From positions 1 through 33,281 of the forward strand of contig CALVIB010000012.1 in the NCBI GenBank assembly GCA_944329375.1: a DNA stretch of 33,281 bases, in the 5' to 3' direction. Every line of letters starts with the position of its first letter. Positions within the stretch are counted from its first letter, which is position 1. A model generated the notes under the pieces. It did no database searches, was not told where the DNA came from, and worked only from the letters and a program-made list of their open reading frames with translations. The position numbers and the translations under genes are program-made. The DNA is from an uncultured Bacilli bacterium (GTDB lineage Bacteria; Bacillota_I; Bacilli_A; RF39; UBA660). Shown piece after piece: positions 198-32,017 of this stretch.

Positions 198-1265
198 TTA
201 TTTAATATTTTCTAAAATAATTTCTTTATTTTTTAATAATCTTTCATCATCATCAATTTTAAGAGCTTCATCAACACACTCTAAAGCTCTACTATAATTT
301 CCTATATTAAAATAACAAATCGACAAGAAATCATATATACTAAAATCAGTACTAAACCATTCAGTAATATAAGTTTTATAACCTTTTTTAATATTTAATG
401 CCTTTTCTAAAAGTGGTATAGCTTTTTCATAATCTTGATTATCATAATAAAATAAAGCAAGTTCTGTATAAGCTTCCTTTAAATGTGGAGCTTCTAGTAA
501 AGCTTTTTGATACCAAAATTCAGCTTCTAATTTTCTATTTAAATGTTTATAACACCTACCAATAAACCTCATAGAAGCACATCTTTCATCTTTCCACGTA
601 GAATTTTTTAAAGACAAATGTTTTTCTAAAGTATCGATTGCCTCATTCCATCTCTCATAATACATATACTCTCTGCCCAAATAATGCATATTTCTATCAT
701 CTGAAGGATCTTCCGCAACAGACAACTCCAAAAGAGGCAAATAACTTCCTCTAGATTTACTCCTATCAGGATAATGATTTAATACTATTTTTTCATCAAA
801 CACCCTTTTCTCTACACCATCAAATTTTAAAACTTCATGTACAGGATGAGTCCATTTATAACCATATCTAGAATGTATTTTGTCAGAATAAAAACTAATT
901 ATAGGATTATTATTTTCATCTAAACTCCAATTAAAAGTATAACTAGCTCTAGTTGTATCTTTATCCCATATTTTTTCTAATTTATCTCGCCAACCTTTTT
1001 CAAACACTTCATCTAAATCTGTACATACACATATATCCGCATCTTCATCAACCATATCTAATGACACATTACGGGCCACATCAAATCTCCAAGGTTTAAT
1101 TATTTCTTTTTTTACTATTACTCCTAATTCTTTTAAAACATCATAACTATTATCTGTTGAACCAGTATCCAAAACAAATATTTTATCTGCTTCTTTCATA
1201 GAATCATACCATCTTTTTATAAATTTTTCTTCATTTTTGCATATAGCATAAACACATATTTTCAT
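198..1265 (-). CDS. Family 2 glycosyltransferase with C-terminal TPR repeats
   Basis: The N-terminal half is a GT-A fold: the start MKICVYAICKNEEKFI, then VLDTGSTDNS (nucleotide-sugar binding), and TDLDEVF, which carries the DxD-type metal-binding motif. The C-terminal half holds TPR-like helices such as AFWYQKALLEAPHLKEAYTE and YEKAIPLLEKALNI. The family transfers sugars from activated donors in the cytoplasm; acceptor and sugar cannot be read from sequence. The ATG at 1265 is chosen over one 39 bases upstream because GGAGG stands 8 bases before it. It follows sigE by 57 bp, where sigG sits in Bacillus; no terminator is visible between them, so read-through from the spoIIGA-sigE unit is possible. 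Confidence 0.85.
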   Translation of the reverse strand: MKICVYAICKNEEKFIKRWYDSMKEADKIFVLDTGSTDNSYDVLKELGVIVKKEIIKPWRFDVARNVSLDMVDEDADICVCTDLDEVFEKGWRDKLEKIWDKDTTRASYTFNWSLDENNNPIISFYSDKIHSRYGYKWTHPVHEVLKFDGVEKRVFDEKIVLNHYPDRSKSRGSYLPLLELSVAEDPSDDRNMHYLGREYMYYERWNEAIDTLEKHLSLKNSTWKDERCASMRFIGRCYKHLNRKLEAEFWYQKALLEAPHLKEAYTELALFYYDNQDYEKAIPLLEKALNIKKGYKTYITEWFSTDFSIYDFLSICYFNIGNYSRALECVDEALKIDDDERLLKNKEIILENIK

Positions 1266-1322
1266 ATTCCATCCCTCCATAATAGAATATGAAATCAATT
1301 TCAATATAATTATTCATAAACC

Positions 1323-2012
1323 CTAAATTTTATCAAGTAATTTTAATTTTCTAATAATTTTTTTCTCTATTCTAGATATATAAGATTGACTAATACCTAA
1401 TAATTCAGCCACATCTTTTTGAGTCATTTCTTCATTATCATAAAGACCATACCTTAAAATCATAATTTTCTTATCTCTTTCATTTAATTTTTCAATCTCA
1501 CCATATAACAACTTTTTATTTGTTTCTTCCTCCAATCCTTTAGTAACTATATCACTATCTGTTCCTAAAATATCTTCTAAATGTAACTCATTACCCTCTG
1601 AATCAAAACTTAAATTATCTTCAAAACTAATTTCTCCTTTTCTTCTTTTATTTTTTCTTAAAAACATTAATATTTCATTATCAATACATCTAGAAGCATA
1701 TGTGGCAAGCTTTATATTTTTATCAAGTTTATACGTATTTACCCCTTTAATTAAACCAACACTCCCAATACTCACTAAATCTTCCAAATCAACACCAGTA
1801 TTCTCATATTTTTTAGCTAAAAAAACAACTAATCTCAAATTATGCTCGATAAGTTTACCCCTAGCATTTTTATCACCATTAAGCCATAAAGTAACATACT
1901 TAACTTCATCTTCCTTAGATAAAGGTGCGGGTAATTTATCCGCACTACCAATAAAAAATACCCCATCCTTTTCAAAAAATCTTCTTAATAAATAAATCAA
2001 CTTTTTTATCAT
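1323..2012 (-). CDS. sigE: RNA polymerase sporulation sigma factor SigE (pro-form)
   Basis: A sigma-70 family factor of 229 residues that follows the Bacillus SigE pattern: NLRLVVFLAKKYENTG and DLVSIGSVGLIKGVNTY (region 2), then a region 4 helix-turn-helix with TQKDVAELLGISQSYISRIEK. SigE is the early mother-cell sigma factor of endospore formation, made as an inactive pro-protein. The sequence VFFIG (residues 18-22) matches the VYYIG processing site of B. subtilis pro-SigE, giving a pro-peptide about 8 residues shorter than in B. subtilis. The gene starts 2 bp after the stop of spoIIGA, the protease that activates it, with GGAAG 7 bases before the ATG. SigK is similar but is not paired with spoIIGA. 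Confidence 0.95.
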   Translation of the reverse strand: MIKKLIYLLRRFFEKDGVFFIGSADKLPAPLSKEDEVKYVTLWLNGDKNARGKLIEHNLRLVVFLAKKYENTGVDLEDLVSIGSVGLIKGVNTYKLDKNIKLATYASRCIDNEILMFLRKNKRRKGEISFEDNLSFDSEGNELHLEDILGTDSDIVTKGLEEETNKKLLYGEIEKLNERDKKIMILRYGLYDNEEMTQKDVAELLGISQSYISRIEKKIIRKLKLLDKI

Positions 2013-2014
2013 CT

Positions 2015-2782
2015 TTATCTTCCTTTCATTAAACCATTTAATAAAACATCCGCATCTGCTAACTTAAAATTCTTACTAAAACCTAAATAAACATTTTCAA
2101 AAACTCCCAAACCAATAACCTCGACCTTTTTAACTTTTATACATTCTAAGATTCCACTCCCTCCTATTACAATATATGGAATATATACTTTTTTATTTTT
2201 AAAATTATTATCGATATTAGTAATAATAACTAATGTATTTTTGTAAGTCAAAGTATTTCCAGAATCTAAATAACCATTTAAATTCAAAATTTTATTACCA
2301 ATATAAATATTTGTTTTAAAACTATAAATCATTCTCTGTTTAAAAAGTTTTATTTGCCTAACATATAAATATAAAATTATCGGCGAAATAATAATTAAAA
2401 ATAAAATACTAATGCTAAAACCTTTATTAAAAAATATAATTCCATTATGAGCATAAGAAAAATTAATATTCAAAAAATATAAAAAACCACCAAGTAAAAT
2501 ACTTACCATATAAAAACATCCAATATCAATAAAAAATCCTCTTAAACTTTTATATCCAAAACATACTATACACATAATAAAACTCAAATAAATTTTAATA
2601 AAAAATAATTCCAAAGAACCTATTTTAAAAAATAAAACTAAAATAGTTAAACTTCCAATAAAAGCTCCCAAAACAATTCTAAATATTTTTACATTCTTCT
2701 TTAAAATAACCACTACGGTTAAAAGTAAAAGAAAATCCAAATAAAAATTCAAAAACAAAAGACCATCTATATATATAATCAT
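2015..2782 (-). CDS. spoIIGA: Sporulation sigma-E factor processing peptidase SpoIIGA
   Basis: An integral membrane aspartic protease that cleaves pro-SigE at the sporulation septum. The N-terminal half contains about five hydrophobic helices. The C-terminal half carries the catalytic motif LDSGN with Asp173 (numbering from the chosen start), followed by a YIPYIVIGGSG segment typical of the pepsin-like half-domain. The ATG at 2782 starts MIIYIDGLLF, typical of the family N-terminus, with GGTGG 4 bases upstream; the longer reading frame up to 2854 lacks a binding site. At 255 residues it is shorter than the roughly 309 of B. subtilis. Co-transcribed with sigE, and 49 bp after proS. Confidence 0.93.
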   Translation of the reverse strand: MIIYIDGLLFLNFYLDFLLLLTVVVILKKNVKIFRIVLGAFIGSLTILVLFFKIGSLELFFIKIYLSFIMCIVCFGYKSLRGFFIDIGCFYMVSILLGGFLYFLNINFSYAHNGIIFFNKGFSISILFLIIISPIILYLYVRQIKLFKQRMIYSFKTNIYIGNKILNLNGYLDSGNTLTYKNTLVIITNIDNNFKNKKVYIPYIVIGGSGILECIKVKKVEVIGLGVFENVYLGFSKNFKLADADVLLNGLMKGR

Positions 2783-2831
2783 AAAACCACCATTTAAAGT
2801 ATAAAAAAAATGACTTAAATATAATGTCATT

Positions 2832-4514
2832 TTATATATTTTTAACAAAATCAATTACTTCATCCAATTTAAATTCTCCATCAACCTTACCATCACGTGA
2901 TTTTAATTCCAAAATACCATCAGAGGCTTTCTTACCAATTGTAATCCTATAAGGAATACCAACTAATTCCATATCCTTAAACTTAACGCCAGCTCTTTCA
3001 TCTCTATCATCAAGTAAAACATCAACACCCATTTTATTAAATTCATCATATAAATCTAAAGCTATCTTACTTTGAGTATTATCTTTCATATTAATAACTA
3101 TAATACCAACTGTAAAAGGAGCGACAGAAACAGGCCAAACTAAACCATATTCATCTGCTTTTTGTTCAGCAATAGCTGCCATACATCTAGCAACCCCTAT
3201 GCCATAACATCCCATATATACAGGTTTTAGCTTGTTTTCTTCATCTAAATAATTTAAATCTAAAGCTTCTGAATATTTTGTACCTAACTTAAATGTATTA
3301 CCTATTTCAATACCTTTTTTAAAATAAATCTTTCCTCCACATTTTGGACAAATATCTCCTTCACAAACATTTACAATATCTCCATACATATAAATATCAA
3401 AATCATCTATATTTACATTAATATAATGATATCCATCTTTATTTGCTCCACATACAAAATTACTCATATTAATAACTTCATTATCTACAATTATTTTTGC
3501 ATTTACCCCAATAGGACCTAAAGACCCAAACGAAGCATCAGTTACCGTTTTAAGTTCATCTAATGTAGCCATCTCCACACTCTGAGCTCCTAATAATTTT
3601 CTAAGTTTTGTATCATTTAAATCTCTATTACCTTTAACCAAAGCCAAAATAATTTCTCCATCAACATTATAAACTAATGTTTTAACAGTTTTATCAATAT
3701 CAACCTTTAAAAACTTAACAACATCTTCAATTGTTTTAACATTTGGTGTTGCAACTAACTCTCGTTTTTTCTTATCTTCTTTAGAAAATTCCATAGCTTT
3801 AACAGGGGCGACTTCAATATTAGAGCCAAAAGAACAACTATCACACATCACTAAAATATCTTCTCCAATATCTGTAACCGCTTGAAATTCCTCTGATAAA
3901 TCTCCACCCATAACTCCAGTATCAGCGTGTACAATTCTATAATCAATTTCCATTCTATTAAATGCATTTTTATAAGCTTCTACCATTTTTTGATAACTAA
4001 CTTCCCCAGTATCTTTATTAGTATCAAAACTATAAGCATCTTTCATTGTAAATTCCCTTGTTCTAATTAAACCAAAACGAGGTCTTGCTTCATCTCTAAA
4101 TTTATCTTGAATCTGATAAATATTAAATGGCATATCTCTATAAGATTTTATTTTTTCTTTAGCTGCCATTACAAATAATTCTTCATGAGTAGGTCCTAGA
4201 CAAAACTCACGATTATTTCTATCATTTAATTTAAACATATCAGAGCCAAAAGAATCATATCTATGTGATTTGTGAAAAATTTCACTTGGAATTAAAGCAG
4301 GCATCAAAACCTCATTAGCTCCCGCTTTATCCATTTCTTCTCTAATAATATTTTCTATTTTTCTTTTAACCCTAAGCCCCATAGGCATAAACATATATAC
4401 CCCACTAGCTTCCTTTTTAACCATGCCACTTCTTACTAATAAATTACCACTCTTACTATCTTCATCTTTAATATCATCTCTAATAGTATAGAAAAAACTA
4501 TTACTTAATTTCAT
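2832..4514 (-). CDS. proS: Prolyl-tRNA synthetase (bacterial type, with editing domain)
   Basis: Charges tRNA-Pro with proline. The 560-residue protein has class II catalytic motifs: motif 2 around RPRFGLIRTREFTMKDAYSF, and motif 3 around GCYGIGVARCMAAIAEQ. The insertion between them (about residues 230-390) is the editing domain found in bacterial-type enzymes. The C-terminal anticodon-binding domain begins near APFTVGIIVINMKD. AGGAGG stands 7 bases before the ATG. Expression is under a proline-type T-box leader with its own consensus promoter directly upstream, so the gene can be induced when uncharged tRNA-Pro accumulates. Confidence 0.97.
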   Translation of the reverse strand: MKLSNSFFYTIRDDIKDEDSKSGNLLVRSGMVKKEASGVYMFMPMGLRVKRKIENIIREEMDKAGANEVLMPALIPSEIFHKSHRYDSFGSDMFKLNDRNNREFCLGPTHEELFVMAAKEKIKSYRDMPFNIYQIQDKFRDEARPRFGLIRTREFTMKDAYSFDTNKDTGEVSYQKMVEAYKNAFNRMEIDYRIVHADTGVMGGDLSEEFQAVTDIGEDILVMCDSCSFGSNIEVAPVKAMEFSKEDKKKRELVATPNVKTIEDVVKFLKVDIDKTVKTLVYNVDGEIILALVKGNRDLNDTKLRKLLGAQSVEMATLDELKTVTDASFGSLGPIGVNAKIIVDNEVINMSNFVCGANKDGYHYINVNIDDFDIYMYGDIVNVCEGDICPKCGGKIYFKKGIEIGNTFKLGTKYSEALDLNYLDEENKLKPVYMGCYGIGVARCMAAIAEQKADEYGLVWPVSVAPFTVGIIVINMKDNTQSKIALDLYDEFNKMGVDVLLDDRDERAGVKFKDMELVGIPYRITIGKKASDGILELKSRDGKVDGEFKLDEVIDFVKNI

Positions 4515-9621: not shown

Positions 9622-10917
9622 ATGAAAAAAAATGTCTTCTTAAAATCAGTTATTTTGCTTTTAATTGGTGGTTTTATAACTAAAATTATTAGTATGTTTA
9701 TTAAAATAGTTTTAGCAAGATTAATCGGCACTGAAGGTATGGGAATATATATGCTTATATCTCCTACTTTTGTCATGCTTATGGCCCTAGCTCAGTTAGG
9801 TTTTCCAGTTGCCATCAGTAAATTAGTTGCTGAAGATACCAAAAATAATAAAAACCTAGTCTTCTCTGTCATTCCTATATCACTAACTTTAAATATAGTA
9901 ATTATTATTTTACTATTTCTAACAGCTGGATTTATCTCTCATAACTTACTTAATGAAGATAGGTGCTGCTGGGCTATAATCTGCATTGGTTTTGTCTTAC
10001 CATTCATCAGTATCTCAAGTATTTTAAGAGGATATTTTTTCGGTAAACAGCAAATGCTACCTCATGTTTTATCAAATGTTACAGAAGATATTGTCAGATT
10101 AATTGCTATTATCATTGGCATTCCCATTTTTTTAAAATATGGAATTGAATATGCGGTTGCTTTTATTGTCTTAACAAATGTCATTAGTGAACTTACTTCA
10201 ATCTTCGTTCTATTTTTCTTCATTCCTAAAAACTTTAAAATCACTAAAAAAGATTTAAAACCAAATAAAAATAATATTAAAGAAGTCTTTTCCATTGGTA
10301 TACCAACAACTATGAGTAGAATAATTGGATCAGTAGGTGCTTTCTTAGAGCCAATCATCCTAACTTATGGTTTAATCAAAAGTGGTTATACCAATAACTT
10401 TATTGTCAATGAATATGGAGTAATCAATGGTTATGTTATGCCCCTAATATTATTACCATCTTTCTTTACAGGAGCCATATCACAAGCTCTAATTCCCAAC
10501 ATATCTAAAGCCCACAAACAAAAACATTACAAATATGTCTGGAATAAAATTAAATTTGCTATTTTTATATCATTAGTAATTGGTATTCCTGCTACTATAA
10601 TTTTTGAATTAATTCCAAACATTCCAATGAAATTAATCTATAACACAACAGTTGGTATAAACTATATAAAAGTTCTAGCCCCTATCGCTTTATTACATTA
10701 TGTTCAAGCACCCCTAACGGCATCACTTCAAGCCATGGGTAAAGCTAAAGAAGCTATGCATGGAACACTCATCGGTACAATCATTAGAACAATCACTCTA
10801 TTAATATTATGCTTCTCGCATATCGGTCTATGGTCTTTAGTATGGGCCACTGGTATCAATATTGTTATTGTTACGTTGCACCAATATAAACATGTTAAAA
10901 AAACTTTAAAAATATAA
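9622..10917 (+). CDS. spoVB: SpoVB-family polysaccharide/lipid flippase
   Basis: A 431-residue polytopic membrane protein of the MOP (MurJ/Wzx) superfamily with about 12 hydrophobic segments. The N-terminus follows the B. subtilis SpoVB pattern closely: FLKSVILLLIGGFITKI, VLARLIGTEGMGIYMLISPTF and LAQLGFPVAISKLVAED. SpoVB acts in spore cortex peptidoglycan synthesis, probably as a lipid II flippase; paralogues serve vegetative wall synthesis. Its place near comN and relA is like that in Bacillus, although here it is on the opposite strand. The ATG at 9622 matches the family N-terminus but no good Shine-Dalgarno sequence precedes it, so translation start is less certain. Confidence 0.88.
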   Translation: MKKNVFLKSVILLLIGGFITKIISMFIKIVLARLIGTEGMGIYMLISPTFVMLMALAQLGFPVAISKLVAEDTKNNKNLVFSVIPISLTLNIVIIILLFLTAGFISHNLLNEDRCCWAIICIGFVLPFISISSILRGYFFGKQQMLPHVLSNVTEDIVRLIAIIIGIPIFLKYGIEYAVAFIVLTNVISELTSIFVLFFFIPKNFKITKKDLKPNKNNIKEVFSIGIPTTMSRIIGSVGAFLEPIILTYGLIKSGYTNNFIVNEYGVINGYVMPLILLPSFFTGAISQALIPNISKAHKQKHYKYVWNKIKFAIFISLVIGIPATIIFELIPNIPMKLIYNTTVGINYIKVLAPIALLHYVQAPLTASLQAMGKAKEAMHGTLIGTIIRTITLLILCFSHIGLWSLVWATGINIVIVTLHQYKHVKKTLKI

Positions 10918-12035: not shown

Positions 12036-12063
12036 ACTAAAAAATAGTCATAACTTGACTATT
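12036..12063 (-). terminator. Rho-independent terminator of nifJ
   Basis: AATAGTCA (12063-12056) pairs with TGACTATT (12050-12043) across a 5-base loop, followed by a T tract on the minus strand. It overlaps the nifJ stop codon and ends the long operon upstream. Confidence 0.8.
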
Positions 12064-15000
12064 TCTGTTTTACTAAACCTTTATAAAAATTAAATCTCTT
12101 AATTGCCGCTTCTTTATTAATGTTAAGCATTTCTTCTGCTTTATCAGGATTAACTATTTTAAGCATACTATATCTTGTTTGATTATTTAAAAATTCATCA
12201 TATAAACTAAAATCAGGATTAGGACTATCTAAAATAAATTCATCTTTAAAACCATCATATCTAAATATAGGAAAATATCCACATTTAGTAGCTAATGCTT
12301 CTTCTTCTACTGAGCATCCCATACCTTTTTTAATACCATGAGAAATACATGGACAATAAGCAATTATAATAGAAGGTCCATTATGTTTAATTGCTTCATC
12401 AAATGCCTTTATTGTCTGCATCATATTAGCGCCTAATGATACTTGAGCTACGTAAGTATTTGGATAAGCCATCGCAATCCTAGCTAAATCTTTTTTATAA
12501 TTTTTCTTGCCAGAAAAAGCAAACTCCGCCACCATTCCTTCTGGAGTTGCTTTTGAAGCTTGACCACCAGTATTAGAATAAACTTCTGTATCTAAAACCA
12601 AAATATTAATATTTTCTCCAGAAGAAAGAACATGGTCAATACCACCAAAGCCAATATCATAAGCCCATCCATCTCCGCCAATAGCCCAAACATTCTTAGA
12701 AATAATATAATTTTTAAGTTCTTTTAGCTTTGGATGCTTATTATAATCTATTTTTTCAAAAACCTCTTTAGTAATCAAATAATTATTAGAATTATTAAGC
12801 CATTTATCAAATAATTCATCATCATGACTCATCATATATTCTCTAACCATATTTTTACCTTTTTCATAACCCATTAAAATACCAAAACCAAACTCCGCAT
12901 TATCTTCAAATAAACTGTTAGCCCACGCTACACTATATGGTGCATTAGGAAGTTCTCCTCCATAAATAGATGAACATCCTGTCGCATTTGCAATAACTAA
13001 ATTATCTGAAAGTTGTGTAAGTAATTTAATATAAGCTGTCTCTCCACATCCCGCACAAGCCCCATGAAAAGCAAACTTAGGTTTAACAAGCTGACTACCT
13101 TTAATAGTTTCTCTTTTAAAATTATCTTTAGGACTAACATTATTAACTAAATAATCAAACACCTTATCATTATCACTATTTTTAAGTTTTTGGAAAGCCA
13201 AAGCTTTATTATCTCTTAAACCAGGACATGTATTAATACATACTCCGCATCCAGTACAGTTTTTAGCCGAAACACCAATAATAAAATAATAATCTTTAAC
13301 GCCCATAGCCACTTTACATTTTTCTTTTACATAACTAGGTGCTTTATCATATTCTTCCTTACTAAGTAAAAACGGTCTAATAACTCCATGCGGACAAACA
13401 AGTGAACAAAAACTACACTGAATACAATTTTCACTAATCCACTCAGGTACAAATTCTGAAATATTCTGCGCTGAAGGTTCTATATGTTCAAAAGAACCAT
13501 CTTCAAAACCTTTAAAAGCAGATACCGCAAGTTCATTGCCTTTTCTATGCACTAAAGCAGAATATACATTATCAAAAGGAAATGCCAATTCTTCTTCCAT
13601 ATCATCTAATACAACCTCATGTAAACTGACATCATTTAAAGCATTAATATTATTTAAAGCAACATCCTTACTTTTAATCCCAAATTTTCTATTAATATAA
13701 TCTTCTAACCTTTTATCAGCATCTTCAAAATTCAAAAGATTTAAAATTGCTTTTTCCATAATCATACTTATTTTACGGCCTAAATTATGCCTTCTTGCAA
13801 TATCATCCGCACATATCTTATAAACTTTAATTTTTTTCTCTTTCAAAAACTTCTTATAAGGATTTAAAACATCTAATAACTTATCATCATCCAAAGAAGT
13901 ATTAATAAGTAATCTACCAAATTCAGCAAGATTTGTAATCGCATCAAAAATATTTAAATAAGTATCCTTAGAAATAACCACTAATTTGGGATTATGAACA
14001 AAATAAGTTGAATGAATAGGTTTAGAAGAATATCTTAAATGACTACATGTCACTCCTCCAGATTTTTTAGAATCATATTCAAAATACCCTTGAACATATT
14101 TATCCTTACCAATAATACCAAGTAATGACTTAGAAGCACTAATCATACCATCACTACCATAACCATAAACCAAAACCTCAGTATTATTAGTAACATTAAT
14201 ATCATCATAATCTAAAGATGAATTAGTCACATCATCCAAAATTCCAATGGTAAATTCATCCTTAGGATTATCAAGCATATCATAAACACTTTTTATCATA
14301 CCAGGAGTAGTATCTTTACTAGAAAGTCCATATCTTCCATGACATATATAAATATCCTTACCTTTTAAACTACTAACAACATCTAAATACAAAGGTTCTC
14401 CTTCACTTCCAGCTTCCTTAGTCCTATCTAAAACCGCTATTTTTTTAACACTCTTAGGTAAAACCTCTAACAAATGTTTATCACTAAAAGGTCTATATAA
14501 ATGTACCTCTACTAAACCAACATTACCTAAATAATCTATAACCTCTTTAATCGTTTCACAAACTGAGCCCATTGCAATAATAACTTTACTAGCCCTAGGA
14601 CTACCATAATAATTAAATGGTTTATAATCAAAGCCGGTTAATTCATTTACCTTATTCATATATAAGCAAACATTATCAATAGCCTTATTATAAAATCTAT
14701 TTCTAGACTCCATCTCCTGAAAATAAATATCTCCATTTTGATTAGTACCTCTAGTAACTGGTTTTTCATTATTTAAAGCCCTATTTCTAAAATCAATAAC
14801 CTTATTAAAAGGTATAATTTTTTTAATATCTTCATCTTCTAAAACATTAATCTTATTAAGCTCATGACTAGTTCTAAAACCATCAAAAAAATGTAAAAAA
14901 GGTAAAGAAGAATCGATACTAGCCAAATGACTAACCAAAGCTAAATTATAAGCGTCTTGCACTGAAGAAGAAGCTAACATACAAAAACCAGTACTTCGAA

Positions 15001-15391
15001 CAGCGTAAACATCTTGATGATCTCCAAATATACTTAATGCATGAGTTGCCAAAGACCTTGCTGCAACATGCATAACAAAAGGAAACATCTCTCCTGCAAT
15101 CTTATACATATTAGGAATCATTAAAAGTAAACCTTGACTGGCCGTATAAGTAGTAGCTAAAAGTCCAGACTGTAAAACACCATGACAAAGTCCAATAGCT
15201 CCTGCTTCACTTTGCATCTCTATTACCTTTGGTACATCACCAAATATATTTTTTTTAAAACTAGAAGCCCATCTATCCATCAACTCAGGCATAGGACTAG
15301 AAGGTGTAATTGGATAAATTCCAGCTATCTCTGTAAACAAATATGAAGCTCGCACACAAGCTTCATTACCATCACATATAATTTTTTTCAT
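12059..15391 (-). CDS. nifJ: Pyruvate:ferredoxin (flavodoxin) oxidoreductase
   Basis: Oxidises pyruvate with CoA to acetyl-CoA and CO2, reducing ferredoxin or flavodoxin; central to anaerobic energy metabolism. The single 1110-residue chain has the full PFOR order. It begins with an N-terminal pyrimidine-binding domain (GIYPITPSSPMPELMD). A ferredoxin-like domain follows with two 4Fe-4S motifs, CIQCSFCSLVCPHG and CTGCGVCINTCPG. The C-terminal thiamine diphosphate domain has GDGWAYDIGFGGIDH and DTEVYSNTGGQASKATP, with the proximal cluster cysteines starting at CAGCG. It is slightly shorter than the usual 1170 residues. The start lies 12 bp after the rpe fusion gene and no terminator intervenes, so co-transcription with prkC-rsgA-rpe is likely. 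Confidence 0.97.
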   Translation of the reverse strand: MKKIICDGNEACVRASYLFTEIAGIYPITPSSPMPELMDRWASSFKKNIFGDVPKVIEMQSEAGAIGLCHGVLQSGLLATTYTASQGLLLMIPNMYKIAGEMFPFVMHVAARSLATHALSIFGDHQDVYAVRSTGFCMLASSSVQDAYNLALVSHLASIDSSLPFLHFFDGFRTSHELNKINVLEDEDIKKIIPFNKVIDFRNRALNNEKPVTRGTNQNGDIYFQEMESRNRFYNKAIDNVCLYMNKVNELTGFDYKPFNYYGSPRASKVIIAMGSVCETIKEVIDYLGNVGLVEVHLYRPFSDKHLLEVLPKSVKKIAVLDRTKEAGSEGEPLYLDVVSSLKGKDIYICHGRYGLSSKDTTPGMIKSVYDMLDNPKDEFTIGILDDVTNSSLDYDDINVTNNTEVLVYGYGSDGMISASKSLLGIIGKDKYVQGYFEYDSKKSGGVTCSHLRYSSKPIHSTYFVHNPKLVVISKDTYLNIFDAITNLAEFGRLLINTSLDDDKLLDVLNPYKKFLKEKKIKVYKICADDIARRHNLGRKISMIMEKAILNLLNFEDADKRLEDYINRKFGIKSKDVALNNINALNDVSLHEVVLDDMEEELAFPFDNVYSALVHRKGNELAVSAFKGFEDGSFEHIEPSAQNISEFVPEWISENCIQCSFCSLVCPHGVIRPFLLSKEEYDKAPSYVKEKCKVAMGVKDYYFIIGVSAKNCTGCGVCINTCPGLRDNKALAFQKLKNSDNDKVFDYLVNNVSPKDNFKRETIKGSQLVKPKFAFHGACAGCGETAYIKLLTQLSDNLVIANATGCSSIYGGELPNAPYSVAWANSLFEDNAEFGFGILMGYEKGKNMVREYMMSHDDELFDKWLNNSNNYLITKEVFEKIDYNKHPKLKELKNYIISKNVWAIGGDGWAYDIGFGGIDHVLSSGENINILVLDTEVYSNTGGQASKATPEGMVAEFAFSGKKNYKKDLARIAMAYPNTYVAQVSLGANMMQTIKAFDEAIKHNGPSIIIAYCPCISHGIKKGMGCSVEEEALATKCGYFPIFRYDGFKDEFILDSPNPDFSLYDEFLNNQTRYSMLKIVNPDKAEEMLNINKEAAIKRFNFYKGLVKQK

Positions 15392-15402
15392 GTAATCACA
15401 TC

Positions 15403-16452
15403 CTATCTATGACAAGCTTCATCCATATTTTCATAAATAACATTATATTCAAAATTATTTTCATTAACCATTTTAACTTCAACAAATACTCCACTAAAAG
15501 AATCTACATAAGGCTTATCAGTCATGGGATTAATCAAATCATCATCAATATAACCTGGCTCAATAATTTCTCCATTTATTGTTCCACCATCTTGAAGTTC
15601 TTTAACACTTATCTTAAATGAATTATGCAAAGATGTAGGTAACAACTCAGGGTGGTCTATCATTACCATTTTAGCTCCTTCAATTAAACTATTCTCTTGA
15701 ACAGTGCAGCTATTATAACGACTCTCTTTAATATTTTTATCAATAGATGTAATTACTATTAACCCCAAAATACTAAGCACTACAATAACTCCTAATAATT
15801 CAGCTAAAGTAAATCCATTTCTTAAAGCTTTTTTTAATTTATAAAATTGACCTTTATAATCATTGCTATCAGTAATAAATGAACCAGCAACTACTATATC
15901 TACATTTTTAACAAACTTAATAGTATCATCATTTATACCGCCATCTACTTCTATCATATAATCTAAATTATTATCCTTACGGTAATTAATTAAATTATCA
16001 ATCTTATTAGTAATATTGATAAACTTTTGACCACCAGCTCCCGCCTTAACACTCATAACCAAAACTAAATCAATACTCTCTAAATAAGGATAAATCTTAG
16101 ATACTTCAGTTTCTGGATTAATTGCAATACCTGCTTTAATACCCTTACTATGAATATAACTAACTATATTTGTTATATCACAAGTACTCTCTAAATGAAA
16201 TGTAATACAACTAGGATTAAACAAAGAAACTTCATCGATATATTTTTTTAAATCTAAAACCATCAAATGAACATCAAAATTATTCCTTAAACCTTTAATA
16301 ACATCACTCATTTTATCAATAGGCCTACTTGCCCTTTCAGTAAATTGACCATCCATAACATCAAAATGAATCAAATCACAAACTTCATCAAGTTTTTTTA
16401 TCTTATCTTTATCATCTTGTATTTTTAAAAAAGAACCAGCAATTTTAACCAT
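15403..16452 (-). CDS. rpe: Ribulose-phosphate 3-epimerase fused to a prepilin-like domain
   Basis: Residues 1-210 form a complete epimerase barrel of the pentose phosphate pathway. Expected catalytic and metal positions are present: His29 and Asp31 in IHFDVMDG, His62 in DVHLMV, Asp170 in IEVDGG and the GQKFI phosphate loop. The usual N-terminal APSILS is changed to AGSFLK. Without a stop codon the frame runs into KKALRNG|FTLAELLGVIVVLSILG (residues 207-230), a textbook class III prepilin signal with Gly213, Phe214 and Glu218, and a roughly 120-residue pilin-like tail. No in-frame ATG, GTG or TTG lies near the junction, so this reads as a true fusion. It sits between rsgA and nifJ, the standard place of rpe. 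Its tail resembles the pilin gene at 31614-31973. Confidence 0.88.
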   Translation of the reverse strand: MVKIAGSFLKIQDDKDKIKKLDEVCDLIHFDVMDGQFTERASRPIDKMSDVIKGLRNNFDVHLMVLDLKKYIDEVSLFNPSCITFHLESTCDITNIVSYIHSKGIKAGIAINPETEVSKIYPYLESIDLVLVMSVKAGAGGQKFINITNKIDNLINYRKDNNLDYMIEVDGGINDDTIKFVKNVDIVVAGSFITDSNDYKGQFYKLKKALRNGFTLAELLGVIVVLSILGLIVITSIDKNIKESRYNSCTVQENSLIEGAKMVMIDHPELLPTSLHNSFKISVKELQDGGTINGEIIEPGYIDDDLINPMTDKPYVDSFSGVFVEVKMVNENNFEYNVIYENMDEACHR

Positions 16453-16460
16453 TGTTCACC

Positions 16461-17288
16461 TCATTTTAAAAATTTTAAATAATTATCATATCTACTTTTT
16501 AAAATAGTTCCATCATTAACTTTTTCTTTAACCTTACATTTTTTCTCATACACATGAAAGCAATCTCTAAATTGGCATTCATCCCTATAAAAATTAAATT
16601 CAGTAAAATTATCTCTAATATCTTCTTTACTCATACCTGTAAACTCTAAAGCTGAAAATCCTGGAGTATCAGCCACTAAACCTCCACATAGTTCAAGCAA
16701 TTCTGTATGTCTAGTTGTATGTTTACCTCTATTTAAAGCTAAAGAAATCTCTCCAGTTTTTAAATTAAAATTAGGATTAAGTCTATTTAAAAGCGTACTT
16801 TTACCAGCTCCACTTTGACCAGTAAATACACAAACCTTATCTTTAAATATTTTTTTAATTAAATCAATCTCATTATTCATATAAACATCATAACCAATTT
16901 TTTTATAATAATTAATAACTGGTTTTATTTTTAAAACCTCATCCTCACTTAACAAATCTGCTTTAGTAAAAATAATAACTGGTTTAACCCTATTATACTC
17001 ACATATAACCAAAAATTTGTCTAAAAGATTAGATGAAAAATCAGGCTTTTTTAAACTAGTAATAATAATAGCCATATCAATATTTGCTATTACAGGCCTA
17101 ATAAGTTTGTTTTTTCTAGGTAATATTTCTTTGATATAATTATTTTCTTCATCAAAAATAACTGCATCTCCAACTATGGGCGAAAGCCCTATGTTTCTAA
17201 ATTTACCACGGGCTTTACACACATATAGTTTATCTAAACTTTTAACAGTATAATCATTACTAATTAATTTAACAATCTTCCCTTGCAT
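16461..17288 (-). CDS. rsgA: Ribosome small subunit-dependent GTPase RsgA
   Basis: A 275-residue circularly permuted GTPase for late 30S subunit maturation. After an OB-fold N-terminus the GTPase motifs come in the order G4 (TKAD, 108-111), G1 (GQSGAGKST, 157-165) and G3 (DTPGF, 207-211). The C-terminal zinc site is Cys238, Cys243, His245, Cys251. The ATG at 17288 comes 1 bp after the prkC stop; the longer upstream frame lies within prkC. Order prpC-prkC-rsgA-rpe is that of B. subtilis, where RsgA (CpgA) is phosphorylated by PrkC. Confidence 0.96.
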   Translation of the reverse strand: MQGKIVKLISNDYTVKSLDKLYVCKARGKFRNIGLSPIVGDAVIFDEENNYIKEILPRKNKLIRPVIANIDMAIIITSLKKPDFSSNLLDKFLVICEYNRVKPVIIFTKADLLSEDEVLKIKPVINYYKKIGYDVYMNNEIDLIKKIFKDKVCVFTGQSGAGKSTLLNRLNPNFNLKTGEISLALNRGKHTTRHTELLELCGGLVADTPGFSALEFTGMSKEDIRDNFTEFNFYRDECQFRDCFHVYEKKCKVKEKVNDGTILKSRYDNYLKFLK

Positions 17289-17289
17289 C

Positions 17290-18993
17290 CTATTCAGTTT
17301 CTCCAGTATCAGTAGGAGTTTCTGTAACCTCAGGATTTTTAACAACTTTAATTCTTAAATTAGCGCCTTCACTAACCTTACTTCCGGCAGCCATATTTTG
17401 ATAAACGATTGCCCCATCTTCACTTTGCAAATCTTGAACTTCAGTAACATTTAATGTAAGTCCATTTTCATCACAAAACTTCTTAACATCTTCTTCAGTA
17501 TAAGTACCATCAGTAAAATTAGGATAACTAATATAAATATCGGGAATAATTAAAGTAATTGTATCACCCTCACCTAATTTAGTTCCAGGTTCCACATCTT
17601 GCTCCAAAATAGCACCTTCTTCTGGATTATCATCCTTAGAAACAGCTTTCTCATCAATTATAACTGTAATTCCAGCTTCTTCTAATAAAGCTTTAACTTT
17701 TTCATAATTTTCGCCAGTATAATCTTCTATCTCAATTTTTTCAGACCCAGTTGAAACAATTAATGTAATCTCAGAACCTTCTTTCAAAGTCTCGCCAATC
17801 TCTGGGTCAGTTCCAATAACCTTATCCTCATCAACTTCATCACTAGCTTCTTTCTTAGTCTTACCTAAAACCTCAAATCCCTTATCCTCTAAAGTACTTC
17901 TAGCTTGTTTAACTGTCATTCCTTGAACATCAGGAATTTCAATGTCTGGTTTATCAGAAATTCTTGGCCATAAAATAAATACAAATAGTAAAGCCGCAAT
18001 CAAAACACCAACAATAGTTCCAATTACAATTAAAGCTTTATTCATCCTTTTATCTTTTTTATTTTCATCCTTTTCTTTATTTCTAGCCACTCTACCTTCT
18101 TTAGGCACATCATTATCATCAAAATTTTTCTCAGGATATCTATAAATAACCCTAGGTTCATTAAATCTATCTTTATCTAAAGCTGTCTCTAAATCCTCAT
18201 GCATATCCCAAGCTGATTCATAACGATTCTTAGGATTTTTAGCCGCAGCTTTCAAAACAATATTTTCAATGGACTGTGGCATTTCAGGGTCATATTCACA
18301 AATACTAGGAATAGGCTCATTCATATGTTTAATAGCCACTTCTACTGGATTTTCACCCTTAAAAGGTACATGACCAGTAACTAACTCATACATCAAAATT
18401 CCTAAAGAATATATATCACTTTTAGTAGTAGCGGCCCCACCATTAGCTTGCTCAGGCGGAATATAATAAACCGTTCCCATCACACTATTAGTCTGAGTAA
18501 ACTCGCCAGCATTTAAAGCAACCGCAATACCAAAATCCATTATTTTAACTCTACCATCTTCTAAAATAATGACATTTTGTGGTTTAATATCTCTATGAAT
18601 AATAAAACTTTCATGAGCATGTGCTACGGCACTAGTAAGCTGAAGCATAATATCTTGTACTTCTGGTAAAGTTAAACTACCTCTTTTTTTAATTAATTGT
18701 TTTAAAGTTAAACCTTGAACATACTCCATTACAATAAAATATTTTCCATCATCTTCTCCAACATCATAAACTTCCACAATATTAGGGTCGTTTAAACTAC
18801 TAGCTGAAATAGCTTCTCTTTGAAAACGTCTAACAAATTTTTCATCTTCAGCTAAATCACCCCTTAAAATTTTAACCGCAACTTTCCTATCTAAAATAGT
18901 ATCCTGTGCTAAATAAACATTAGCCATTCCACCTTCGCCAATAGCTCTAATAATTTCATAACGGTCATTAATAAGTTGTCCCCTTGTTATCAT
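17290..18993 (-). CDS. prkC: Membrane Ser/Thr protein kinase with three PASTA repeats
   Basis: A cell-wall-sensing kinase. The cytoplasmic kinase domain (about 1-270) has a GEGGMANVYL loop, Lys41, Glu60, HRDIKPQN with Asp135, and DFG with Asp153. The activation-segment end reads GTVYYIPPEQ. A basic linker leads to one transmembrane helix (320-342), then three extracellular PASTA repeats (about 350-417, 418-484, 485-553) that bind peptidoglycan fragments. Family members control growth, wall synthesis and spore germination. The ATG overlaps the prpC stop by 4 bp and has AGGAGG 7 bases upstream, so kinase and phosphatase are translated together. Confidence 0.97.
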   Translation of the reverse strand: MITRGQLINDRYEIIRAIGEGGMANVYLAQDTILDRKVAVKILRGDLAEDEKFVRRFQREAISASSLNDPNIVEVYDVGEDDGKYFIVMEYVQGLTLKQLIKKRGSLTLPEVQDIMLQLTSAVAHAHESFIIHRDIKPQNVIILEDGRVKIMDFGIAVALNAGEFTQTNSVMGTVYYIPPEQANGGAATTKSDIYSLGILMYELVTGHVPFKGENPVEVAIKHMNEPIPSICEYDPEMPQSIENIVLKAAAKNPKNRYESAWDMHEDLETALDKDRFNEPRVIYRYPEKNFDDNDVPKEGRVARNKEKDENKKDKRMNKALIVIGTIVGVLIAALLFVFILWPRISDKPDIEIPDVQGMTVKQARSTLEDKGFEVLGKTKKEASDEVDEDKVIGTDPEIGETLKEGSEITLIVSTGSEKIEIEDYTGENYEKVKALLEEAGITVIIDEKAVSKDDNPEEGAILEQDVEPGTKLGEGDTITLIIPDIYISYPNFTDGTYTEEDVKKFCDENGLTLNVTEVQDLQSEDGAIVYQNMAAGSKVSEGANLRIKVVKNPEVTETPTDTGETE

Positions 18994-24360: not shown

Positions 24361-24475
24361 AGCTTACCTCACGGTAAGCTATTTCTACTTCATAGCAGCC
24401 TTAGGCTCCTCCATAGACCAATATCGGATAGTCGCTACCCTAACATATATTTATTTGTCAAAATTTATACTTAAA
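24361..24475 (-). ncRNA. Candidate omega-RNA (TnpB guide scaffold)
   Basis: The non-coding segment right after, and slightly overlapping, the tnpB stop is richer in G+C than its surroundings. On the minus strand it forms GGGTA/TATCC, AGCC/GGCT (in GAGCCTAAGGCTGC) and the 9-bp TAGCTTACC/GGTAAGCTA hairpin. A structured RNA at this place is the hallmark of TnpB systems, with the guide beginning just past the element end. The exact 3' end and guide are not resolved. Confidence 0.55.
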
Positions 24476-25619
24476 CAGAATGTTTTATTCCTTTCATATA
24501 TATTTTTAACCCTTCAAACATTATATTTACTGATGCATTATAATCACGGTCATGATTAGTATAACATACTGGGCATTCCCATTTCCTTATGCTTAAATCT
24601 TTTACTTTCTTATTTTGATAATTACATACATTACATATTTGACTACTTGGATAATATCTATCTATTTGTATTAATTTTTTATTATTCCAATTAGCTTTAT
24701 ATTTAAGCATTCTTATTATCTCAGAAATTGGATTCTCATTTAAGCCTTTTGCCACATAATGATTTTTCTGCATACTTTTTACATCTAAATTCTCAGTTAC
24801 TATAATGTCATTTTCTTTTATTAACTTATTTGTAATATCGTGTATCATATGCTTTCTAGCATTTCTTATTTTCTGATACATTCTTTGTATTTTAAGTTTC
24901 ATTTTATATCTATTTTTACTTCCTGCTTTACATCTGGCTAAACCACGTTGTAAACCAATTAATCTTTTATTATTTATTTTAATAGTATTTTCTATTTTTT
25001 CATTATAAGATGTTACTATTAAATTTTTTATTCCTAAATCTATTCCTATTATACTTGTTGGAACAAAGGCTGGTCTAATTAAAGGCTCTTCTATTAATAC
25101 ACTTACATAATATCTACCAGCCTCTTTTTTAATAACGGCACTTTTAATATTACCAGGTATTACTTCTTTATTCCTATATCCTCTTATTTTTACTTCTTTT
25201 AATTTTGGTAAAGTAATAGTTTTATTTTTTAAATCTAATTTTATAGTTTCATAATGATTACCTTTATAACTACTTTTAATGTTATTGGTTTTATATCTTT
25301 CATGAACACCTTTTGCTTTAAATTTAGGAAAGCCACTTCCATTATAGAAATTTTTAAAAGCTCTTTCTAAATCTAACAAACTATTTCTAAGAGAGCAACT
25401 ATCAACTTCTTTTAACCATTCTTTTTCTTTAGAAAGTAATGGAATTAATTTCATTTGATCAAATGCACTTTTACTTTTTCCAGTTTCTTTATATTCTTTT
25501 ATTTTATCATCTAAAAAATAATTATATATAAATCTAGAGCAGCCAATAGTTTTATTAATTAACTGTTCTTGCTCTTTTGTTGGATAAAGTCTAAATACAT
25601 AACCTTTTAATATTTGCAT
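24471..25619 (-). CDS. tnpB: RNA-guided endonuclease TnpB (IS605 OrfB family)
   Basis: A 382-residue protein that appears intact. The N-terminal HTH/wedge part begins MQILKGYVFRLYPTKEQEQL. The RuvC-like residues are Asp194 (IGIDLGIKNL), Glu276 (IVTENLDV) and an Asp of HDRDYNAS (357 or 359). The zinc ribbon has Cys329, Cys332, Cys349 and Cys352. TnpB cuts DNA under the guidance of an RNA from the element's own end and favours its retention. The ATG at 25619 has AAGG upstream and matches the family start; codons further up lack a binding site. No tnpA transposase is present, so the element is non-autonomous or domesticated. Confidence 0.93.
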   Translation of the reverse strand: MQILKGYVFRLYPTKEQEQLINKTIGCSRFIYNYFLDDKIKEYKETGKSKSAFDQMKLIPLLSKEKEWLKEVDSCSLRNSLLDLERAFKNFYNGSGFPKFKAKGVHERYKTNNIKSSYKGNHYETIKLDLKNKTITLPKLKEVKIRGYRNKEVIPGNIKSAVIKKEAGRYYVSVLIEEPLIRPAFVPTSIIGIDLGIKNLIVTSYNEKIENTIKINNKRLIGLQRGLARCKAGSKNRYKMKLKIQRMYQKIRNARKHMIHDITNKLIKENDIIVTENLDVKSMQKNHYVAKGLNENPISEIIRMLKYKANWNNKKLIQIDRYYPSSQICNVCNYQNKKVKDLSIRKWECPVCYTNHDRDYNASVNIMFEGLKIYMKGIKHSV

Positions 25620-25648
25620 ACCATCACCTTCTAGTTTTTGTTTAACTA

Positions 25649-25677
25649 AATATATCACGAACAGTTATATTTGTAAA
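25649..25677 (-). promoter_or_regulatory. Promoter of tnpB
   Basis: TTTACA (25677-25672), a 17-bp spacer and TATATT (25654-25649) with TGA upstream, 29 bp before the ATG. Confidence 0.6.
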
Positions 25678-31613: not shown

Positions 31614-31973
31614 TTATTCTTCATATATAATATATTCTAATTTTTTATTGTTACTTCTTTTAACACAAACTCTCATATTAACATCAAACAAATCATTCGT
31701 TTTTGGATTTTTTATATCAAGCGGTAAATAGCCTCCTTTTTGTAATTCCTCAATTGTTTTACAGGCCAAAGCATTATTTTCTGGTAATTCCGATAAATGT
31801 TCAGAATAATAATCTTGACAGCCTTTTTTTATCTGTTCAATCTGTACATCATATAAATTCTCCTTACTTTGGCTAAGAGAACGATTAATTACTGGAACTG
31901 TAATAATAGCAATAATACCCAAAACTGCTACAACACCTAATAATTCTATCAAAGTAAATCCTTTATTATTCAT
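31614..31973 (-). CDS. Type IV pilin/pseudopilin-like protein (ComGC-type prepilin)
   Basis: A 119-residue protein with a very short class III signal, MNNKG|FTLIELLGVVAVLGII (Gly5, Phe6, Glu10), the usual N-terminal helix, and a small globular tail with three cysteines (in KKGCQDYY, LACKTIEE and RVCVKR). The tail motif EELQKGGYLP...KLEYIIYEE resembles that of the pilin domain of the rpe fusion (KELQDGG...FEYNVIYE). The ATG at 31973 has GGGTGG 4 bases upstream, better than the ATG at 31985. No pilus assembly ATPase, platform protein or prepilin peptidase is in the window. Confidence 0.85.
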   Translation of the reverse strand: MNNKGFTLIELLGVVAVLGIIAIITVPVINRSLSQSKENLYDVQIEQIKKGCQDYYSEHLSELPENNALACKTIEELQKGGYLPLDIKNPKTNDLFDVNMRVCVKRSNNKKLEYIIYEE

Positions 31974-32017
31974 ATTACCACCCATAATTATAATATCATA
32001 TTTTTTAACTAAATAAA

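Follow-up and report, generated by a model that had tools for sequence, protein, structure and literature searches.

A predicted ribulose-phosphate 3-epimerase fused in frame to a type IV prepilin in a genus of uncultured gut Bacilli

Gene organization of the fusion locus

The window, i.e. the whole 33,281-nucleotide stretch of an uncultured Bacilli bacterium analysed here, carries an rpe gene that is continuous with a prepilin gene (Table 1). The first-pass annotation had described one chain in which ribulose-phosphate 3-epimerase (RPE) passes into the prepilin sequence KKALRNG/FTLAELL (the slash marks the predicted cut site) with neither a stop nor a new start codon, and this is what is seen: a single ORF of 349 residues, in which the nearest in-frame ATG, GTG, or TTG lies 48 codons upstream of the pilin part. 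The ORF starts with an ATG, with TGAGGTGAA ahead of it. The annotation had also placed the gene at the ordinary rpe site, in agreement with the presence of rsgA upstream and nifJ downstream.

Table 1. Features of the rpe-pilin fusion locus in the window
Feature	Position	Strand	Remarks
rsgA, conserved upstream neighbour	16461..17345	-	
Shine-Dalgarno-like GAGGTG ahead of the fusion ATG	16457..16462	-	anti-SD duplex energy -11.0 kcal/mol
rpe-pilin fusion ORF	15403..16452	-	349 aa, uninterrupted, stop codon included
Ribulose-phosphate 3-epimerase barrel (predicted), residues 1-198	15859..16452	-	profiles, conserved residues, model
Last epimerase helix as putative prepilin leader, residues 199-213 (YKGQFYKLKKALRNG)	15814..15858	-	net charge +4, last 12 residues
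Predicted prepilin peptidase site, Gly213/Phe214	15811..15816	-	motif invariant in clade A
Mature type IV pilin part (predicted), residues 214-349	15406..15813	-	
Hydrophobic N-terminal part, long pilin helix, residues 214-240	15733..15813	-	Glu at mature position 5
nifJ (pyruvate:ferredoxin oxidoreductase), conserved downstream neighbour	12059..15391	-	

The genome is about 1.2 Mb in size and carries sporulation-type genes in the window: a SigE/SigK-like sporulation sigma factor beside a SpoIIGA-like peptidase (1323-2854, minus strand) and a SpoVB-like protein (9622-10917, plus strand). The window also contains a gene for an IS200/IS605-type TnpB RNA-guided nuclease (24471-25658, minus strand; NF038281, 377 bits).

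Epimerase part

Two curated profiles identify residues 1-208 as a predicted ribulose-phosphate 3-epimerase: Pfam Ribul_P_3_epim covers residues 11-193 (E 4.8e-44), and the NCBIfam profile for the enzyme, NF004076, covers residues 2-208 (E 2.2e-55, 187 bits against a cut-off of 165). His29, Asp31, His62, and Asp170 are unchanged across the 24 fused homologues described below, and His29 and Asp31 align opposite the H-x-D of Streptococcus pyogenes RPE (2FLI). Both the profile score and the invariance of these four residues bear out the initial reading of this part as a full RPE with its catalytic His and Asp residues. The AlphaFold2 barrel superposes on 2FLI with a TM-score of 0.92 (normalised to 2FLI) at 33% identity. 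No second epimerase gene was found in the window's genome.

Phosphoketolase is encoded in 40 of the 44 genomes of the genus, including every genome of the window's own clade of 16 species (hereafter clade A). No transketolase was detected in any of the 16 clade-A genomes or in several neighbours, and RPE in clade A probably feeds xylulose 5-phosphate to phosphoketolase, both statements being subject to the incompleteness of these metagenome-assembled genomes (MAGs).

Prepilin part and pilus machinery

A prepilin motif, (Gly or Ala)/Phe-x-x-x-Glu followed by a hydrophobic helix, is present in the pilin part of the fusion, and the motif is invariant in clade A. Residues 211-234 match TIGR02532 (18.4 bits, cut-off 16.3) and score 20.4 bits with PF07963, which is 0.8 under its cut-off of 21.2. 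The tail had been called pilin-like, and alignment to ComGC and pseudopilin profiles had been suggested as a check; the ComGC profile NF040999 gave 20.2 bits, below its curated cut-off of 75 bits. Modelled alone by AlphaFold2, the pilin part has a pLDDT of 88.5, with a helix at 3-53 and strands, a layout that would correspond to the long N-terminal helix and the small beta head of type IV pilins. The best structural alignments of this model were modest (PulG, Z 5.1; TCP, Z 4.8; CFA/III, Z 4.7), and the closest solved folds were mostly type IV pilins and pseudopilins, at Z of about 5 or less. A Foldseek search with the pilin part alone returned nothing under E 0.001; a sequence profile of the same part retrieves PilE1 at 1.6e-6. 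In the AlphaFold2 model of the whole chain, the barrel and the pilin are each predicted with confidence and are separated by a short break at 211-215, where the predicted cut falls. Helix 199-210 and the prepilin leader form one stretch, as expected from the earlier suggestion that the last epimerase residues double as the leader.

The window's genome encodes one prepilin peptidase (A24_N, the N-methylase-type domain, and A24 domains; D...GGGD and CxxC pairs intact), which lies at about 81.8-82.6 kb of contig C2 and whose gene adjoins a PilC/GspF platform gene, together with a GspE/PilB-like ATPase homologue. Apart from the fusion, the genome has at least 13 prepilins, and the leaders of 13 of 13 are 4-9 residues long. 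A second, ordinary type IV prepilin with a short leader, GspG/ComGC-like, lies in the window itself (31614-31985, minus strand). Elsewhere in the genome, a Tad-like locus (L170, 2461-6730, minus strand) encodes a TadA ATPase and two T2SSF proteins, one of them with Ig-like domains.

Distribution in the genus

A search of 99 relatives identified full-length fused ORFs in 23 genomes beyond the window's, all of the same genus of uncultured gut bacteria, with 45-69% identity to the window protein. Thus, 24 of the 44 genomes of the genus carry the fused ORF, in each case flanked by rsgA and nifJ. In 19 genomes rpe and the pilin gene are separate, and in one (G041) the locus is cut by a contig end. 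In public records these loci belong to MAGs that several studies produced with several assemblers; Candidatus Coprosoma intestinipullorum is the recorded name of one unfused member of the genus. Since the fusion recurs in 24 species-level genomes, it is not an isolated artefact, so that the refuting conditions named at the outset fail, and the single-chain enzyme-prepilin fusion is confirmed as genuine.

In 18 of the 19 unfused congeners, the two genes touch or overlap out of frame. The overlaps are short and of the ATGA or ATGAATAA type, with the pilin Shine-Dalgarno sequence inside the 3' end of rpe; the exception (L048) has a gap of 81 bp. One false indel in such an out-of-frame overlap could mimic a fusion, and singletons (L024 and L028, for example) each have a single MAG behind them. 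An assembly or sequencing error that joined two out-of-frame genes has nevertheless a negligible probability and, in the window's own clade, is already refuted: the 16 clade-A species share an in-frame junction of fixed length with near-saturated synonymous differences. The sources of the fused contigs span several studies and several assemblers, and contig names give depths of up to 48.9x.

The pilin gene after rpe is large and modular in two unfused genomes, G033 and G037 (L043, 1608-3000, plus strand; L055, 1595-2999, plus strand), with repeats that by eye are parallel-beta-like and BspA-like leucine-rich, which suggests that the pilin slot may carry adhesins. Outside the genus, no full-length fusion was present among the stronger matches listed in surveys of the family and class (386 and 395 genomes), beyond which rare distant cases may exist, and most family members have no pilin gene directly after rpe. 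Six loci (L058-L063) considered as further enzyme-pilin fusions were rejected, their pilin motif being N-terminal and the extra part C-terminal. At L183 (G388; about 393-2490, plus strand), also outside the genus, a modular pilin with GLUG-like repeats directly follows rpe. A different C-terminal domain of ~130 aa is fused in frame to RPE in L180 and L181 (G102 and G241), which belong to another genus of the family.

Selection on the junction

Constraint along the gene was compared by pN/pS (a Nei-Gojobori-type count over all pairs of the 16 clade-A species), which, with synonymous sites near saturation, serves only to rank regions. The lowest value was obtained for residues 199-213 (0.163), followed by the transmembrane helix of the pilin (0.20), the RPE body (0.372), and the pilin head (0.541). 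Residues K205, L206, K207, K208, L210, R211, N212, and G213 and the following FTLAEL are invariant in all 16 species, and most sites of KLKKxLRNG/FTLAEL are encoded by two to four synonymous codons. Synonymous differences are as frequent at the junction as elsewhere in the gene. Because synonymous codons alternate there and the amino acids stay fixed, selection acts on the translated protein. These data show that the junction is translated and is under constraint at the protein level, and its constrained features match the needs of a prepilin peptidase substrate.

The RPE tail has also been remodelled. In 16 of 16 clade-A species it extends exactly 19 residues past GS(F/Y)(I/V)T, and the acidic RPE ends (-NE) of unfused relatives are absent. 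All fused tails are net positive (+2 to +4; +4 throughout clade A); those of the unfused proteins range from -2 to +3.

Origin of the fusion and loss of the internal start

In an RPE tree built without the junction, clade A is monophyletic (99/96), but the 24 fused sequences together do not form one clade. A single clade of all 24 was rejected by the AU test with RPE (p 4.9e-8) and with RPE plus pilin (p 2.4e-5). The distribution of fused and unfused states requires five to six changes on the tree, some of which could be losses. The fused junctions vary in length and sequence (LRNG, NYMKG, IFMNKG, KKALG, and LKSKA), which favours independent gains over losses. Taken with the scattered placement of the fused sequences, these differences suggest that the fusion probably arose at least three times: in clade A, in L024, and one or more times in the L025-L031 group, from which L028 is not separable by the test (p 0.21).

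The unfused relatives suggest the starting point. All 18 of the unfused pilin ATGs measured are preceded by a Shine-Dalgarno sequence with a duplex energy of -8.2 to -13.6 kcal/mol. This second-gene Shine-Dalgarno sequence and start of a translationally coupled pair, present in 18 unfused relatives, are not found in the window; they have been lost in clade A and in most other fused genes. Three genes (L025, L026, and L029) are fused yet retain AGGGG or AGGAG together with an ATG that lies in frame 4-6 codons ahead of the cut site, with internal Shine-Dalgarno energies of -7.5 to -8.1 kcal/mol. As judged from these comparisons, the ancestral state was apparently two overlapping genes, from which fusion would have arisen repeatedly: an indel in the short out-of-frame overlap of a translationally coupled pair would have joined the frames, and the internal ribosome-binding site and start would then have decayed.

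The three genes that keep the internal signals could be translated in both modes, and they are also what would speak for a pilin made from an internal start, with the fusion protein minor or irrelevant. We regard this explanation as very improbable in general and as largely refuted for the window's clade, given that the 16 clade-A fusions share neither a start codon nor a Shine-Dalgarno site (none better than -5.5), that the window sequence (L001) has no ATG, GTG, or TTG in the 47 codons before the site, and that the junction amino acids are fixed although their codons vary.

Proposed processing of the fusion protein

We consider it likely, with cleavage inferred from the conserved site, that the fusion is a two-product polyprotein: the enzyme of 213 residues would act as the prepilin leader and be freed in the cytoplasm when prepilin peptidase cuts after Gly213. 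Ribosomes would translate rpe and the pilin gene as one chain. With the epimerase folded in the cytoplasm, the basic helix at its end (KLKKALRNG) would stand in for the short prepilin leader, and the helix beginning with FTLAELLGVIV would enter the membrane with its positive charges inside and the pilin head outside. The single prepilin peptidase would then cut after Gly213 at the cytoplasmic face. The epimerase (213 residues) would then be available to the pentose phosphate/phosphoketolase route and the pilin (136 residues) to a type IV filament, at a fixed ratio of 1:1. Membrane insertion, cleavage, and the activity of both products are what we infer here. A large cytoplasmic domain at the N-terminus need not prevent insertion, since ComGC carrying T18 or T25 domains N-terminal to the mature pilin was still membrane-embedded and interacting (PMC5572924).

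Several points count against the two-product reading. The leader of 213 residues is outside the described range of 6-26 residues (PMC4471445), the fused L028 has Ala rather than Gly at position -1 (Ala also occurs in unfused relatives), and the literature searched offers no case in which a prepilin peptidase cuts downstream of a folded 200-residue domain. The length of the leader could instead suit an uncut chain, in which the pilin helix tethers the epimerase to the inner face of the membrane, either as a membrane-localised enzyme or by a degenerate pilin anchor: the leader would be about 10 times longer than known ones, and the folded barrel beside the site might obstruct the peptidase. A mere anchor, however, would not need Gly213, Phe214, and Glu218, which are invariant while the Gly and Glu codons vary; moreover, the pilin head is still under selection (pN/pS 0.54), and unfused relatives carry ordinary prepilins at the same place. 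We therefore judge the uncut chain unlikely. That Gly(-1) and Glu(+5) never vary across clade A fits cleavage and filament assembly and does not fit a plain anchor, in favour of the two-product polyprotein.

Why the genes became fused is a separate question. The chances are roughly even that the fusion reflects neutral gene compaction without benefit, the intervening stop and start being dispensable because the peptidase cuts anyway. Such compaction agrees with the repeated origins from short overlaps and with the state of roughly half of the genus, where each product has a gene to itself. The retention of the fusion with a highly conserved junction in a clade of 16 species points the other way, although such conservation is to be expected after fusion, and nothing that was found speaks positively for a benefit. 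A more speculative idea, which we hold only tentatively and think rather improbable, is that prepilin peptidase has become the maturation protease of the cell's only epimerase, which feeds phosphoketolase and would be set free solely through the processing of its pilin. The supply of the enzyme would then depend on both the production and the membrane processing of the pilin, and this would have been selected more than once.

Comparison with known systems

As a working assumption, prepilin leaders are short peptides that are discarded, and the fusion challenges this. It is a candidate for a natural polyprotein that prepilin peptidase divides, in which the tolerance of the peptidase for folded cargo is directly testable. 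Prediction rules that read only protein N-termini would miss such pilins, and an annotation would say rpe only. No report of an enzyme-prepilin fusion or of an RPE-pilin link was found in the searchable literature, outside which most subscription journals lie.

With the class III signal peptides of T4aP and Com pilins (PilD/ComC), the fusion shares a basic stretch, Gly/Phe at the cut site, Glu at +5, a long hydrophobic helix, and a single bifunctional peptidase. Prepilin leaders are said to vary in length (PMC10191384), but the leader here would be a complete 213-residue metabolic enzyme instead of 6-26 residues (PMC4471445). With the RPE of S. pyogenes (2FLI), it shares the entire TIM barrel and the active-site residues; it differs in that the C-terminus continues into the pilin and the last helix is recharged as a leader. 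The modular (adhesin) type IV pilins PilB and PilC of Streptococcus sanguinis likewise have an additional domain joined to a pilin; their grafts are surface-displayed and part of the mature pilin, whereas the graft described here sits ahead of the pilin, on the cytoplasmic side, and would be cut off by the peptidase. Translationally coupled overlapping pairs (ATGA) are exactly the arrangement of the unfused congeners, whereas in the fused genes the overlap is resolved into one frame and the second start site is lost. The genus offers a living evolutionary series, from coupled overlap through in-frame fusion with the old start kept to fusion with the start lost. The parts are known, and what is new is their arrangement, an entire housekeeping enzyme as the putative leader of a prepilin, together with living intermediates.
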